A stretch of 44,527 nucleotides of DNA, from positions 1 through 44,527 of IMG/VR virus record IMGVR_UViG_3300050821_001709; one strand, given 5' to 3'. The stretch comes from a virus. The notes under the pieces were generated by a model. It had not been told where the DNA came from and did no database searches. It saw only the letters and a list, made by a program, of their open reading frames with translations. Positions 22,482 through 44,527 of the stretch are shown one piece after another (within the stretch, counting starts at the first letter, position 1; the number at the start of each line of letters is the position of its first letter). The position numbers were made by a program, and so were the translations under genes.

Positions 22482-23507
22482 TTAAATGTTAATCATTGTA
22501 GGGAAGTTTGCAAGCATAGCCGCATCAAATGCGCCATAACCAGCAGCACCTTCATTAGCATACACTACTTGTACTCTACGTGCACCAACCAAAACTCCAC
22601 TTGAAGCATTGTCAGGAGCAAGAATAGAATCAACAACTATATATTGAGTATAGTTATTAGATGCTATTACCAACTCAAAAGTTGGGAAAGAGAACAAACC
22701 TTGACGTAAGTTATCGCTCAACAATTCTTTTTGAGGAACTTCATCAACTAATCTTGAACCAATACCACGACTGATAACACCAGCAGTTGTAATAACTAAA
22801 TCGCTTGCTGCAAATCCTTTAGTAACAAGTACTGTATTTGGACCTTGGAACAAACCTTTAGTATAAGCAGAGAAATAACCACCAATATCAATGATTCTTA
22901 GACCTAATCCTAATACTGGAGGAGCACTTGTTGTAGTTGTAGCACCACTTGTTTGACCAGTGATTACTTCTCCGTTTACGAATAAACCAGAGAATACTGC
23001 AATGGTCATATTTCCTGCTACATCGGATACAAAATATCCTTTTGCGCCAGAAGTTCCACCTGTTACTACTTCATGTAAAACAAATGTTCCTACTACTGCA
23101 CCATGTGTAATGGTAATAACAGAACCAGCATTAGCACGTGCCGATGCTGTATTGTTAATTTTTGTTGCAATAGAGAAATAGATGTTGTATTTATCTGTTG
23201 CAGGGCTTCCCGATAATACCGCCGGAGCAGTAGCACCAAAGAATGTTAATTGATTTTGAGCACCTTCTCTACGATTACCAGTATTGCCTATTGCAACTTG
23301 GTATTTAGAGAATGCTACAATAGCTGCTGCACTTGTAACAGTTACCACTTGACGAATTTCTGCAATAGAGTGTGCTCTTGTTGCTGAAAGAACTTGTGTT
23401 TGAAGAACTGGAAACCAGCCAGAAACCTGTACGGACCCGGCAGTTAAAACAGAATCTCCTGCTACCTCATTATTCAAGAGGTATGCACGAACTACTTTTG
23501 ATTCCAT
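22482..23507 (-). CDS. Virion structural protein, short paralogue
   Basis: A 341-residue protein that aligns nearly end to end with residues 1-341 of the 559-residue protein at 24717-26396. Shared blocks include 'KVVRA.LLNNE', 'YQVAIGNTGNRREGAQ', 'EVVTGGTSGAKGY', 'GQTSGAT', 'TAGVISRGIG', 'LLS.NL.QGLFSFPT' and 'NEGA.GY.AF.A.ML.NFPTM'. It lacks the C-terminal ice-binding-like domain of its partner. The two genes were adjacent before the endonuclease genes entered between them. Its own terminator follows. Position suggests a capsid or connector decoration protein. Confidence 0.7.
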   Translation of the reverse strand: MESKVVRAYLLNNEVAGDSVLTAGSVQVSGWFPVLQTQVLSATRAHSIAEIRQVVTVTSAAAIVAFSKYQVAIGNTGNRREGAQNQLTFFGATAPAVLSGSPATDKYNIYFSIATKINNTASARANAGSVITITHGAVVGTFVLHEVVTGGTSGAKGYFVSDVAGNMTIAVFSGLFVNGEVITGQTSGATTTTSAPPVLGLGLRIIDIGGYFSAYTKGLFQGPNTVLVTKGFAASDLVITTAGVISRGIGSRLVDEVPQKELLSDNLRQGLFSFPTFELVIASNNYTQYIVVDSILAPDNASSGVLVGARRVQVVYANEGAAGYGAFDAAMLANFPTMINI

Positions 23508-23576: not shown

Positions 23577-24302
23577 TTAATCTATTATATTTATATCGGA
23601 AAGTTTCCCATTATATTTAATCACTCCTTCGTTGTGCGCTATGGCAGCATCCTTTTCATCTTCAAAATATCCCAAATGTTTTACTTTATTATTTATGCGA
23701 ACTGAAGCAACCCACTTACCTATTTTCATTTTTCGTGTTTCCTTATGCCAACTAACCCCCTTGTATTTACTTCTTTTATAAGCATGAATAATATTGCATC
23801 TATCTGTAATTATCATTTCTTCCAATTTTTTGATAGGAATATTTATTTCATTAGGACAAAAATAGTCTGATAATTCTAATCCTTTTTTATTATAGGCATG
23901 AGCCGCAGCCTCCTCTGTTCTATAATACCCACAAAAATGTTTCTTACCATTCATTCGGCAATATGATAACCATGTTTTTGTTTCTTCTCTAAAATAGACA
24001 CCTTTATATTTATTTTTTGTATTTTTTCGCTTTTCCTGATTATGACTATTGCCTTTTTTATCTGTTATTCTAATATTATCTCTTGTATTATTTAATTTTA
24101 TTCTATCGATATGATCTGATATTTCACCTGATTTAATTTGTTTAATTAAATGGTGCATTTTTGTTTCTTTTCCATTTATTTTTGTTGCTGCATAACCACC
24201 CGAAATCCACCACCGATGTTTATTTATCCAATCATAATCTGAATCATCAACTTGGGCAAATTTACCATTTCCGTGTATTCCGTGTAATTTAATATGTTTC
24301 AT
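23577..24302 (-). CDS. HNH homing endonuclease with two AP2 DNA-binding domains
   Basis: A 241-residue protein. HNH core: 'MHHLI' (His 50-51), 'DHIDR' (Asp 63, His 64), 'NNTRDNIRI' (Asn 71-76). Two AP2-type three-strand domains follow: residues ~98-145 ('YKGVYFREETKTWLSYCR', 'CGYYRTEEAAAHAYN') and ~178-235 ('YKGVSWHKET', 'HLGYFEDEKDAAIAHN'). Such enzymes nick or cut DNA at a target and spread by homing. The gene is free-standing, between two paralogous structural genes, and no intron core is visible. The gap to the 75-residue gene upstream is five bases. Confidence 0.9.
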   Translation of the reverse strand: MKHIKLHGIHGNGKFAQVDDSDYDWINKHRWWISGGYAATKINGKETKMHHLIKQIKSGEISDHIDRIKLNNTRDNIRITDKKGNSHNQEKRKNTKNKYKGVYFREETKTWLSYCRMNGKKHFCGYYRTEEAAAHAYNKKGLELSDYFCPNEINIPIKKLEEMIITDRCNIIHAYKRSKYKGVSWHKETRKMKIGKWVASVRINNKVKHLGYFEDEKDAAIAHNEGVIKYNGKLSDINIID

Positions 24303-24307
24303 ACTAT

Positions 24308-24535
24308 TTATTTTATTTTGTTTCCATATTTCTTACTTTCTGCATGACAATATCTATGTGGTATTTTATACCAGTATATTAATACTGGACTTTTGCCTTT
24401 ATCTAAATACATTTTTCTAACACCAATAACTTTTCTAACTATTAATGCAGGACCATCATATTCTGATCCATCATAAATTACTTGTGCATTTTTTGGCATT
24501 TTTTGTAATTCTTCAATTAATTTTTTGACTGTCAT
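24308..24535 (-). CDS. Small hypothetical protein of the 'MTVKKLIEELQKMP' type
   Basis: A 75-residue protein starting 'MTVKKLIEELQKMPKNAQV', a pattern very common in short phage hypotheticals: an N-terminal helix with 'L..MP.(N/D)A.V', then a beta strand ('IYDGSEYDGPALIVRKVIGV'). It lies between the kissing-loop leader RNA and the HNH-AP2 gene and is probably carried with that insertion. Function unknown. Confidence 0.65.
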   Translation of the reverse strand: MTVKKLIEELQKMPKNAQVIYDGSEYDGPALIVRKVIGVRKMYLDKGKSPVLIYWYKIPHRYCHAESKKYGNKIK

Positions 24536-24567
24536 GTTTTTTGTTTTTAATTGTTTATAAAATAAAA

Positions 24568-24644
24568 AATCCCCTTGATAGTGCAGCTATCTCAGGGATT
24601 AGTAAAGGCTTGCGCCAATATTTTTTTGAATTGCTGCACAATTC
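24568..24644 (-). ncRNA. Kissing-loop leader RNA, copy A
   Basis: Two hairpins lie 5' of the 75-residue and HNH-AP2 genes. Read on the minus strand, hairpin 1 (24644-24628) is GAATT-GTGCAGC-AATTC. Hairpin 2 (24600-24568) has outer stem AATCCC/GGGATT and inner stem GATA/TATC closing the loop GCTGCAC. The two 7-base loops are exact reverse complements, so they can kiss. Hairpin 2 is followed by TTTTTTATTTT, like a terminator. Copy B at 34770-34842 has the same plan with different loop bases that still pair. Promoter TATATTTG lies just upstream, so the RNA would start almost at hairpin 1. Confidence 0.65.
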
Positions 24645-24650
24645 TATGCT

Positions 24651-24680
24651 CAAATATACAAAAATAAAATGGGATAACAA
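24651..24680 (-). promoter_or_regulatory. Bacteroidota-type promoter of the endonuclease module
   Basis: The minus strand reads TTG, 19 bases, then TATATTTG. The TTG lies in the loop (AACAATTAAG) of the terminator at 24666-24697. Predicted start is about 24645, so the transcript would open directly with hairpin 1 of leader RNA copy A. Confidence 0.6.
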
Positions 24681-24716: not shown

Positions 24717-26396
24717 TTAAGAGGTAGGAAGTACATAAGTACCTGCTCCAGCACCAGTGCTTATAGCTGCTGCCGCTGTTGACAATAATCTACCTTCAAG
24801 TTGCGTATTAGCACCAGTAGTTTGACCTGCTGGAGAAAGAGAGTTTCCTTTCCAGATAGTGTTTGCTCCTGTTGTTAATGCTGCGCCTGATGCGAAGAAA
24901 ATCCTTGATGCAACTGCTCCATTTAGCAATACAAAAGTTGTATTGGCTCCTGTGGTAATCGCACCGGGGAATATAAATACATAATCTCCAACTCCGCTAA
25001 AGGTAACTGTTCCTCCTGCTCCTGTTCCCGCTGCACCTGTTCCTTTAAAGATACCCGGATGGAATATACCCGGACCATTACCTACGTCAACAGTTTCTAA
25101 AACAACTGCTCCCGGAATAAAGCTAAATGTTGGTGTTAATCCTGTCAATGTAGCATAAGTATTTGCTGCATCATTAACTGCCGGAGTAGATGCTGGGGCT
25201 GGATAATCTGCACCAGAAGTAAATACTACCGAACCAATTATTGCGCCTGCTTGTCCTATATCTCCATTTACTGGTTGTGCTGGTGTTCCAACTGTAAGAG
25301 CACCACCTGTAAGAATAACATAAGTAGTAGCTAATCCTAAAGAATAAGCTGGTGCTATTGGAACACCATTACTATTTACCATTGTAGGGAAATTGGTAAG
25401 CATAACGGCTTGAAATGCTGCATATCCCGGTGCGCCCTCGTTTACATATAAAACCTGTACACGTCTTGCGGCAACGGTCGTTCCTGCTGCTGCATCATTT
25501 GGAACATTGTTAATATAATCTACTACAATATATTCTGTGTAGTTATTTGCTGCAATGATAGCTTCTGTTGTAGGGAAAGAAAATAATCCTTGAGCTAAAT
25601 TACTACTCAACAATTCTAATTTAGGTACATCATCCACTAATCTTGTTCCAATACCTCTGCTAATAACGCCAGCGGTAGTGATAACTAAGTCTAATGATCC
25701 CCAACCTCTTGTTGCAAGTACTGTATTTGGTCCCTGTAAAAATCCTTTAGTATATGAAGAAAAATATAAACCTGTATCTGTAATTCTAAGTCCCAATCCA
25801 ATAGTAGGAGGAGCAGTAGTAAGTGCAGTAGCACCACTTGTTTGTCCTGTGATAGTTTCACCACTAATGAAATCACCAAAATAGTTAGCAATAGTTAAAA
25901 CACCTGCTGCGTCCAATACCAAATAACCCTTTGCGCCTGACGTACCGCCTGTTACTACTTCATTAAAAATAAATGTTCCAACTGTTGCTGCGTGAGCAAT
26001 AGTTATTACCGAACCAGCAGTAGCGTGTGCGGAAGGAGTTTGATTTATTTTTTTTGCAAGTGCAATATAAATATTGTGTTTATCCTGAGCAGCGTTACCA
26101 GACAATAAAGCCGGAGCTGTTGCACTAAAGAAATCTATTGGAGTTTGTGCGCCTTCTCTGCGGTTTCCTGTGTTACCAATGGCAACTTGATAAATTGTGA
26201 ATGGCGTAATTGCAGCGTTACTTGTAATAGTAACAACTTGTTTTACTTCTGGCGTAGAAGTAATTTTAATAGCCGAAAGAACATTGGTTTGTTTTATAGG
26301 GAACCAGCCCGTAATATATACGTAACCTGCCGTTAAGACTGAATCTGCGGGGGTTTCATTATTGAGCAATTGCGCTCGGACAACTTTTTCTTCCAT
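24717..26396 (-). CDS. Virion structural protein with C-terminal DUF3494 ice-binding-like domain
   Basis: A 559-residue protein. Residues 1-341 are a paralogue of the 341-residue protein downstream, including an inserted beta module at ~128-195 ('EVVTGGTSGAKGYLV', 'ETITGQTSGAT'). Residues ~352-559 match the DUF3494 / type I ice-binding pattern in order: 'ATTYVILTGGALTVG', 'PVNGDIGQAGAI', 'VNDAANTYATLTG', 'HPGIFKGTG', 'GDYVFIFPGAITTGANTTF', 'LLNGAVASRIFFASGAAL', 'TIWKGNSLSPAGQTTGAN', 'EGRLLS'. DUF3494 proteins form a beta-solenoid and serve as ice-binding proteins or adhesin modules. Here it would sit on the virion surface. A terminator follows the gene and a promoter-like TATATTTG precedes it. 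The parent role is inferred as capsid or connector decoration. Confidence 0.8.
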   Translation of the reverse strand: MEEKVVRAQLLNNETPADSVLTAGYVYITGWFPIKQTNVLSAIKITSTPEVKQVVTITSNAAITPFTIYQVAIGNTGNRREGAQTPIDFFSATAPALLSGNAAQDKHNIYIALAKKINQTPSAHATAGSVITIAHAATVGTFIFNEVVTGGTSGAKGYLVLDAAGVLTIANYFGDFISGETITGQTSGATALTTAPPTIGLGLRITDTGLYFSSYTKGFLQGPNTVLATRGWGSLDLVITTAGVISRGIGTRLVDDVPKLELLSSNLAQGLFSFPTTEAIIAANNYTEYIVVDYINNVPNDAAAGTTVAARRVQVLYVNEGAPGYAAFQAVMLTNFPTMVNSNGVPIAPAYSLGLATTYVILTGGALTVGTPAQPVNGDIGQAGAIIGSVVFTSGADYPAPASTPAVNDAANTYATLTGLTPTFSFIPGAVVLETVDVGNGPGIFHPGIFKGTGAAGTGAGGTVTFSGVGDYVFIFPGAITTGANTTFVLLNGAVASRIFFASGAALTTGANTIWKGNSLSPAGQTTGANTQLEGRLLSTAAAAISTGAGAGTYVLPTS

Positions 26397-34214: not shown

Positions 34215-34240
34215 CAAAAGTACGAAAAAATATTAAATTA
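34215..34240 (-). promoter_or_regulatory. Putative leftward (late?) promoter, TACTTTTG type
   Basis: The minus strand reads AATTTAATATTTTTT, then CG, then TACTTTTG. This closely matches the block before the gene ending at 5244 (5816-5841). It overlaps the end of the HNH-AP2 gene. The predicted start is about 15 bases before the portal ATG at 34194. Confidence 0.5.
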
Positions 34241-34751
34241 TATTAGGACTGCAAAATTCCCCAAAATATTTTTCACATGCCTTATTATATGCAATCGCAG
34301 CATGCTCTTCTGTTTTATGTGATCCTAAATGAATAGCTATGCCATTAACCTTTATTCCACATTTCCATGATTTATAAATATATAAACTTCCATCTTTTCT
34401 TATTCGTTTTTTAATTGCTAAAGAAACACCTTTATATTTTGATGAAGCATTTTTTTGTTTTCTTTTATTCATTGCATTTTGACTCGTAGTGCTTGGCCTT
34501 AAATTATGCCTTTGATTATCAAGTCCATTTTTATTTTTATGATCTGTATTTTTTTGACCAGTAATATCTTGGTGCATCATGCTATATTTTCTTATATCGT
34601 CTTCATAAACAGATCTTCTTGCATATAAATTATTCTCGTCTGGAAGTAAATGGTAATTATACTTACTTAACCTTTCATAGTCTTCATCATCAACCATTGC
34701 AAAATATTTTCCTTTACTTGGCCCTTGTTTAGATAATTCAATTAATTTCAT
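34233..34751 (-). CDS. HNH homing endonuclease with one AP2 domain
   Basis: A 172-residue protein. HNH core: 'SMMHQDI' (His 60), 'NTDHKNKNGLDNQRHNLR' (Asp 70, His 71, Asn 79, Asn 83). An AP2-type domain covers ~105-160 ('SKYKGVSL', 'KVNGIAIHLGSHKTEEHAAI'). The first ~35 residues ('KGKYFAMVDDEDYERLSKYN') resemble 'GNGKFAQVDDSDYDWINKHR' in the other HNH-AP2 protein, so the two are related. It is inserted between TerL and portal and is preceded by leader RNA copy B. Free-standing homing endonuclease. Confidence 0.9.
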   Translation of the reverse strand: MKLIELSKQGPSKGKYFAMVDDEDYERLSKYNYHLLPDENNLYARRSVYEDDIRKYSMMHQDITGQKNTDHKNKNGLDNQRHNLRPSTTSQNAMNKRKQKNASSKYKGVSLAIKKRIRKDGSLYIYKSWKCGIKVNGIAIHLGSHKTEEHAAIAYNKACEKYFGEFCSPNII

Positions 34752-34769
34752 AATATTTATAAATAAAAA

Positions 34770-34842
34770 CGCTTTGCCTTTCAGGGTAGTGCATCCTTAC
34801 TCAGCAAAGCGATTAATAAGTTTTAGTCGGCACTACTCGACT
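34770..34842 (-). ncRNA. Kissing-loop leader RNA, copy B
   Basis: Two hairpins lie between TerL and the HNH-AP2 gene. Read on the minus strand, hairpin 1 (34842-34825) is AGTCG-AGTAGTGC-CGACT. Hairpin 2 (34811-34770) has an 8-base-pair stem CGCTTTGC/GCAAAGCG whose large loop holds GCACTAC. GTAGTGC in loop 1 and GCACTAC in loop 2 are exact complements. Hairpin 2 ends in TTTTTATTT. Both copies begin hairpin 2 with CTGAG after the stem and contain TGCACTA, but the pairing bases differ between copies. The upstream TATATTTA is a weaker promoter than in copy A. Confidence 0.65.
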
Positions 34843-34861
34843 ATATAAATATACAAAAAAT

Positions 34862-36883: not shown

Positions 36884-36895
36884 AATAATATTTTG

Positions 36896-37220
36896 TGGAG
36901 CTGGTGGGAATCGAACCCACGTCCAATATATTTAATTAATTGATTTTATTTAAAGGCTTAGGATATGATTTACTAACCATCCAAAATCGGGGTCGATAAT
37001 TTACCAACCTCTCCACCAGTTAGTTTAATGTTCTAACAAACCACAGAGCTTCTGTTCCCAAAAACTGCTTACGCAGCCGCTCTCATTTCGGTTATCATTT
37101 CGATAACTGGCACATTTTTAGTTTTGCCATTTAATTGTGAAAATAATTTATTAATCGGATATTAACAGCCGATGCCTTAACCAAAGAACGAACCTATACT
37201 GTCAAAAGCCTGTCAGCCCC
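36896..37220 (-). ncRNA. ssrA: Phage-encoded tmRNA
   Basis: A complete tmRNA of about 325 nt. Its 5' end GGGGCTG pairs with 3' CAGCTCC in a 7-base-pair acceptor stem (one G-U), and the discriminator is A. The T arm is GTGGG-TTCGATT-CCCAC. CCA is not encoded (CAA follows). The tag frame reads GKTKNVPVIEMITEMRAAA then TAA, starting after ..TTAAAT with A at -4. The stop codon sits in a GTAA tetraloop closed by CTGC/GCAG, as in known tmRNAs. The tag is longer than the usual ~9-10 residues and lacks the Bacteroidota-type 'GENNYALAA'. It starts three bases after the upstream stop codon and ends 12 bases before the TerL ATG. Confidence 0.9.
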
Positions 37221-44187: not shown

Positions 44188-44527
44188 ATGATTAAAATAG
44201 AAATAAAATCAATATTAGGTAAAGTTCTTTTTGAATACAAAAAAGAAGATAATACCATACTGAAAACAGTCGTAGAAGCCGTAAATAAAGGCGCAGACTT
44301 ACAAGGCGCATACTTACAAGACGCAGACTTACGAGGCGCATACTTACAAGGCGCATACTTACAAGACGCAGACTTACGAGGCGCATACTTACAAGGCGCA
44401 GACTTACAAGACGCAGACTTACGAGGCGCATACTTACGAGGCGCAGACTTACAAGGCGCATACTTACGAGGCGCAGACTTACGAGGCGCATACTTACGAG
44501 GCGCAGACTTACAAGGCGCATACTTAC
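44188..44527 (+). CDS. Pentapeptide-repeat protein, cut by the window end
   Basis: At least 113 residues, open at the window end. After an N-terminal part ('MIKIEIKSILGKVLFEYKKE', 'ILKTVVEAVNKG') the sequence is a strict run of A-(D/Y)-L-(Q/R)-(G/D) pentapeptides, which form a right-handed square beta-helix. The DNA is built of near-identical 15-base units (GGCGCAGACTTACAA, GGCGCATACTTACGA), a sign of recent expansion. Some pentapeptide proteins mimic DNA and act on gyrase; nothing here shows that role. Start context TTAGCCATG. The long minus-strand frame opposite is a repeat artefact. Confidence 0.85.
   Translation, partial: MIKIEIKSILGKVLFEYKKEDNTILKTVVEAVNKGADLQGAYLQDADLRGAYLQGAYLQDADLRGAYLQGADLQDADLRGAYLRGADLQGAYLRGADLRGAYLRGADLQGAYL

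Follow-up and report, generated by a model that had tools for sequence, protein, structure and literature searches.

The 172-aa HNH-AP2 homing endonuclease-like gene of the 44.5-kb virus contig analysed here (referred to as a whole as the window) is preceded by a leader in which two hairpins can pair through their loops, and folds of this kind, built from other sequences, recur before HNH-AP2 genes that possess a leader of their own in viral contigs of many unrelated phages. The structure of this leader is well supported; its function, as deduced from sequence, is probably that of a cis-acting attenuator in the 5' leader of a mobile or free-standing homing-endonuclease cassette. The element, termed copy B, lies on the minus strand (34843..34770), as do the genes of this region, within one base of where the original prediction had located it, and consists of hairpin 1, a 12-nt linker, hairpin 2 and a U-run. 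Hairpin 1 (TAGTCG-AGTAGTGC-CGACTA, 34824..34843) was defined by motif scoring, and the MFE fold agrees on its stem, TAGTCG/CGACTA, which has 6 bp instead of the 5 first described; the remainder of the proposed plan (two hairpins, the second of them longer, and a T-run) was confirmed. Kissing strand 1, GTAGTGC (34830..34836), lies within hairpin 1, whose loop is AGTAGTGC. The linker, AAACTTATTAAT (34812..34823), leads to hairpin 2 (CGCTTTGC-TGAGTAAGGATGCACTACCCTGAAAG-GCAAAGCG, 34770..34811), delimited by folding and motif scoring, which has a stem of 8-9 bp and an apical region of 26 nt. This apical region, between CGCTTTGC and GCAAAGCG, reads TGAGTAAGGAT[GCACTAC]CCTGAAAG and includes kissing strand 2, GCACTAC (34786..34792), so that the two loops share a perfect complementarity of 7 bp. 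Directly 3' of hairpin 2 the sequence contains a terminator-like U-rich tail, TTTTTATTT (34761..34769); this terminator-like hairpin was missed by a simple terminator scan in which loops were capped at 8 nt. The ATG of the HNH-AP2 gene (34233..34751, minus strand; PHROG 99/4578 HNH endonuclease, E 5e-28 and 3e-16) is found 18 nt after the end of hairpin 2, and no Shine-Dalgarno-like sequence is present in copy B. Even without the kiss, copy B folds better than its own shuffles (z -2.4). A second contig, with a single base difference to the window over 18 kb, contains the region unchanged, and because of this an assembly error is unlikely.

A second leader with the same plan, copy A, has been found on the minus strand at 24644..24568, with the kiss GTGCAGC/GCTGCAC; the 7-base complementarities reported earlier are thus present in both copies. 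Its hairpin 1 (GAATT-GTGCAGC-AATTC, 24628..24644, by fold and motif scoring) carries GTGCAGC at plus-strand positions 24633-24639, and its hairpin 2 (AATCCCT-GAGATA-GCTGCAC-TATCAA-GGGGATT, 24568..24600) carries GCTGCAC at 24581-24587, followed by the U-rich tail TTTTATTTT (24559..24567), identified by sequence and by the U-run test. This copy also folds better than its own shuffles without the kiss (z -2.9). Both copies had been described as preceding HNH-AP2 genes, which is strictly the case for copy B; copy A precedes a hypothetical 75-aa ORF (24308..24535, minus strand), and the 241-aa HNH-AP2 gene (23577..24302, minus strand; PHROG 99, E 1e-42), with a second AP2-like stretch, begins a few nt further on. 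The 75-aa ORF has no Pfam match, and in PHROGs only weak matches to families of unknown function. The 172-aa protein is related to annotated phage HNH endonucleases and aligns with the same family as the 241-aa copy; both match the PHROG 99 HNH endonuclease, and AP2 was detected by Pfam only in the 241-aa protein, with an E value of 4.5e-6 that falls below the Pfam cut-off. Copy A, the 75-aa ORF and the 241-aa gene are flanked by paralogous genes with similar N-termini (22482-23507 and 24717-26396, minus strand), which places this cassette inside a duplication, between its two halves. At its end the longer paralogue (24717-26396) carries an ice-binding-like domain (PF11999, E 1.5e-12).

Taken bare, the motif is not rare, since shuffled windows contain about 0.9 instances each of its loose form (5-bp stems, a 7-bp kiss and a T-rich tail). 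Its strength is more informative: when stems and kiss were scored together and compared with the best match in each of 297 shuffled windows, copy B (54.5) exceeded all of them (maximum 52), whereas copy A (45.5) ranked about 15th, an event of about 5% on its own. The second-best match of a shuffled window never scored above 43.5, that is, below copy A. Shuffling the loops, the check that had been proposed, gave a 7-base match, given both loops, in 0.16% of cases for copy B and 0.04% for copy A. That the two copies are chance hairpins of AT-rich intergenic DNA, picked out by the search, is very improbable: the frequency of the bare motif in shuffles and the 5% of copy A speak for it, but the shuffle, real-gene and independent-feature controls all go against it, and it was already disfavoured. 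The loop changes between the two copies are another matter. They had been called compensatory, and clean compensation does exist in other leaders (see below), but copies A and B do not differ by clean paired substitutions; both hairpin 2 loops contain TGCACTA, over which the kissing register is shifted, and for this reason the two kisses are weaker evidence of covariation than was first thought. Close relatives that could provide covariation were sought, yielding one near-identical contig and otherwise phages with 36-50% protein identity and without the cassette RNA.

Selection for loop-loop pairing, as originally suggested, is supported by a survey of 221 distinct HNH-AP2 upstream regions from viral contigs. 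In a first small set, kisses were noticed by reading before L007 and L012 (identical with the loci L044 and L059), and a kissing descriptor was then run. In the first set of regions, 7 of 60 scored at least 45, against 0.35 expected per shuffle; in a second set, fetched later, 4 of 73 scored at least 48 (0.18 expected), all of them near the start codon. For example, the leader of L138 combines TTGTTT[GGGACTGGC]AAACAA with TTTGT[GCCAGTCCC]ACAAA, and L133 and L109 contain the hairpins GGATTGA[CCGCGAG]CAATCC and CTAATC[GTTCGAGC]GATTGG, respectively; further examples are L103, L069, L084, L051, L059, L068, L101 and L250. L101 carries the two 7-mers of copy B in exchanged places, with GCACTAC in its 5' hairpin and GTAGTGC in that of the terminator; the terminator tail of this leader, GGGCTTTTTTAATTTTATAAAC, is similar to the one in copy A. 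With the kissing descriptor, a score of at least 45 was reached by 10 of 62 HNH-AP2 leaders versus 1 of 111 control leaders from the same contigs (gap 80-250 nt). With a more general descriptor (a hairpin near the start whose apical region complements any upstream segment, cut-off at least 38), 28 of the 79 HNH-AP2 genes with their own leader (gap of at least 80 nt) were positive, compared with 1.7 expected from shuffles and with 8/246 control leaders, taken from other genes of the same contigs (Fisher 6e-13). The excess persisted when an in-frame stop was demanded, which excludes open coding sequence (16/79 versus 7/244, p 2.5e-6). By contrast, HNH-AP2 genes abutting or overlapping the upstream gene showed no excess over shuffles (5/122 at 38 or above, 4.0 expected), and none of the 122 reached 40. 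Four apparent positives were rejected, L115 and L168 as ordinary terminators, L121 and L147 as in-frame coding sequence. In the latter two, apparent pseudoknots lie some 100-125 nt upstream of the start assigned to the HNH-AP2 gene and in frame with it, and their similar peptides (MDS...SSC..CCPT) are probably an N-terminal extension. Beyond the viral contigs, bacterial and archaeal genomes yielded three loci when scanned, but none of use; GenBank phages showed only short DNA matches to leader plus gene, the best of them within the gene, and 11 HNH-AP2 genes of named phages follow closely behind the upstream gene, without a leader.

Features on which the search did not depend also support selection for pairing. 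The general descriptor takes no account of what surrounds the upstream pairing strand, so that the placement of this strand in a loop is an independent test; among 24 class I leaders (the architecture of copies A and B, described below), 12 have it within a hairpin loop, versus 2.5 expected, and these 24 included copy A (winA) and L044, both below the score cut-off. Of 20 curated leaders, 13, with copies A and B among them, have a U-run of 4 or more after hairpin 2, against a background of 9%. The U-run is absent in L051, L044, L059, L068, L240, L296 and L251, so termination cannot be the mechanism common to all. Non-Watson-Crick pairs that bridge helix segments are GU in 13 cases and AC in 4, a bias indicative of coding-strand RNA. 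Finally, two homologous pairs of leaders show compensatory changes with no broken pair: in L122/L173 (72% identical) 4 of 11 pseudoknot pairs differ, each compensated, and in L030/L075 4 of 7. Both pairs have sub-architectures of another kind, L122/L173 lacking the 5' hairpin and L030/L075 being int-alpA-like, and they are not close relatives of copies A and B.

The surroundings of copy B are consistent with an inserted cassette. The large terminase of the window is 23-27% identical to those of crAss-like phages, to which this phage is, by sequence comparison, distantly related, and the portal and major head proteins were identified by PHROGs. The large terminase gene has a full-length tmRNA gene (36893-37220, minus strand; RF00023, E 1e-28) immediately upstream, and the end of the contig contains a repeat-rich frame, MRLVSLRLVSMRLVS... 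(44192-44521, minus strand), perhaps a tandem repeat or an assembly artefact. L016, a relative, has its terminase and portal genes side by side without an intervening endonuclease, hence RNA and gene look like a cassette inserted in the window. Absence of the cassette from the corresponding site of L016 would also suit a DNA-level element, with nested inverted repeats serving cassette mobility or protein binding and no RNA fold; this is hardly plausible, given that order and strand are fixed relative to the gene, that GU pairs prevail over AC, that U-runs follow, and that the structure is absent where the HNH-AP2 gene has no leader of its own.

Three architectures can be distinguished among these leaders. 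Class I, with copies A and B, consists of hairpin 1, a linker with an optional small hairpin, and hairpin 2, whose apex kisses loop 1. The second closes a three-way junction, 3' of which lies the sequence that pairs with the loop of its third hairpin. Rfam scores place L129, L221 and L242 above the threshold of int-alpA (RF02996), and L030, L045, L075, L155, L167, L201 and L264 look int-alpA-like by eye only. The assignment of L030, L045, L075, L129 and L167 by the first descriptor was wrong, as they are int-alpA-like. The int-alpA leaders of L129, L221 and L242 (at about 1371-1479) stand directly before HNH-AP2 genes, a context that differs from the integrase and alpA genes of the name. The third type, L122/L173, has no hairpin 1. 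About 110 nt before the HNH-AP2 start, these two share a conserved core, GGCAATTCGGG..GCxCAA, and a covarying 11-bp pseudoknot, overlapped by an open frame of 33-34 codons that ends in GW(F/L)FYW; the conserved element may be RNA, leader peptide or both. The three architectures may or may not be related, their common point being a pseudoknot beside the HNH-AP2 start. No Rfam family, group I intron and HEARO included, reaches its gathering score in copies A or B, tmRNA being the sole match in the window, and a search of both copies, the window and 29 relative loci gave nothing for class I; the int-alpA model itself does not match either copy at E values up to 10. Readings as a pistol ribozyme or a group I intron were dropped, as no model matched. 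Class I leaders have a common architecture but not a common sequence, and no conserved ligand-binding core. This bears on a riboswitch-like switch in which the kiss would form on binding a metabolite or a protein, possibly the nuclease itself. Loop-loop contacts do organise known riboswitches, TGAG, TGCACTA and AAG occur in hairpin 2 of both copies, and L122 and L173 have their common core; across class I, however, the sequences differ almost everywhere and leave no conserved pocket, and we regard such a switch as quite unlikely.

Attenuation by the leader would start from a promoter just upstream. The consensus of the Bacteroidota -7 promoter element is TAnnTTTG. A promoter-like TATATTTA (34846..34853, minus strand), differing in the last base, lies 2 nt 5' of hairpin 1 of copy B, and TATATTTG (24651..24658, minus strand), which matches the consensus, lies 6 nt 5' of that of copy A. 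A sigma-70-type scan also marks TATATTTG and has no match before copy B. In several relatives TTGACA-17-TATAAT-like promoters end 6-20 nt before the structure, and promoters of sigma-70-like type are present in L138 and L142; the sigma-70 test on the leaders was mixed (up to 2 mismatches in 3/16, against 1-3% of controls). All promoter assignments follow from consensus only, and that of copy B is weakly supported. Transcription from such elements, present before copies A and B and several relatives, would produce an RNA with hairpin 1 as its 5' end. Hairpin 1, whose structure is supported, would fold and present a loop of 7-8 nt, which would then pair with the apex of hairpin 2, just ahead of the coding region, a step that has comparative support. 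In copies A and B and most relatives, hairpin 2 and the U-run would act as an intrinsic terminator between promoter and gene; in both copies a stable stem is followed directly by the U-run, the promoter position being suggested only. In a few relatives hairpin 2 instead lies against the start region or covers it, and members without a U-run would act at initiation. The folded leader would thereby limit read-through or initiation and keep nuclease output low. As the kiss is topologically compatible with hairpin 2, it most likely locks the folded, repressive state; this direction of action, like promoter use, termination and any trigger, we infer from sequence. A promoter-like TACTTTTG (34222..34215, minus strand, by consensus only) stands before the portal gene, so that a terminator before the endonuclease need not starve the portal.

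The same order of elements could also produce a stand-alone small RNA, ended by hairpin 2, that acts either in trans or bound to the HNH-AP2 protein in an RNA-protein complex. The order promoter, RNA, terminator, protein is also that of retrons, type III toxin-antitoxin systems and IscB-associated RNAs. A promoter-like element, a compact fold and a U-run precede the gene in copies A and B and many relatives, and the related int-alpA is typed by Rfam as an sRNA gene. We consider this unlikely, because the loops are unconserved and always pair with each other, as would be expected neither of a guide nor of a conserved binding site, and because members without a U-run continue into the ORF. A further possibility, which we find doubtful, is that HNH-AP2 homing endonucleases are accompanied, as they move, by an RNA module of their own, which has no fixed sequence and is defined only by the kiss between 5' hairpin and terminator hairpin; this module would have repeatedly evolved or diverged into the class I, int-alpA and L122/L173 types, and would be a nuclease sensor or RNA partner instead of a simple brake.

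Attenuation in cis, the reading that we prefer, has its nearest precedent in T4-like phages, in which homing endonucleases (I-TevI, I-TevII, I-TevIII, segB, Aeh1 mobE and seg43(25)) are controlled by RNA structures consisting of single hairpins (PMC2988022). There, as here, the structure lies just 5' of the homing-endonuclease ORF and is tied to the placement of promoters, and in seg43(25) likewise the hairpin does not cover the RBS (PMC2988022). In contrast to the single T4-like hairpins, which mostly sequester the Shine-Dalgarno sequence (PMC2988022), the present leaders have two kissing hairpins, the second of them usually with a U-run, and a promoter-like element precedes the whole structure; a Shine-Dalgarno sequence lies within the stem in the relative L044 but not in copy B. 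Like int-alpA (RF02996), they are pseudoknotted phage leaders, although int-alpA, with its three-way junction, a third hairpin loop pairing 3' of the closing stem and conserved CUAG/CGAAAA, has another topology than copies A and B. They share a hairpin and U-run between promoter and gene with intrinsic-terminator attenuators, and an intramolecular loop-loop contact with riboswitches such as the purine riboswitch. They differ from both in that no conserved ligand core and no competing anti-terminator pairing were identified, and in that the kiss directly involves the terminator loop. In the literature searched, kissing-loop leaders of homing endonucleases were not found reported.

Most of what is known about how selfish homing endonucleases hold their expression down to a level harmless to the phage comes from T4-like phages. 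Leaders that conserve a shape and not a sequence would escape searches by sequence as well as by covariance model, and this may explain the absence of such a class from Rfam. The finding of orphan int-alpA RNAs beside a gene family whose nuclease would be limited in this way suggests what int-alpA does. The kissing leader offers a concrete and easily tested mechanism, and points to an undescribed RNA brake on nuclease genes.
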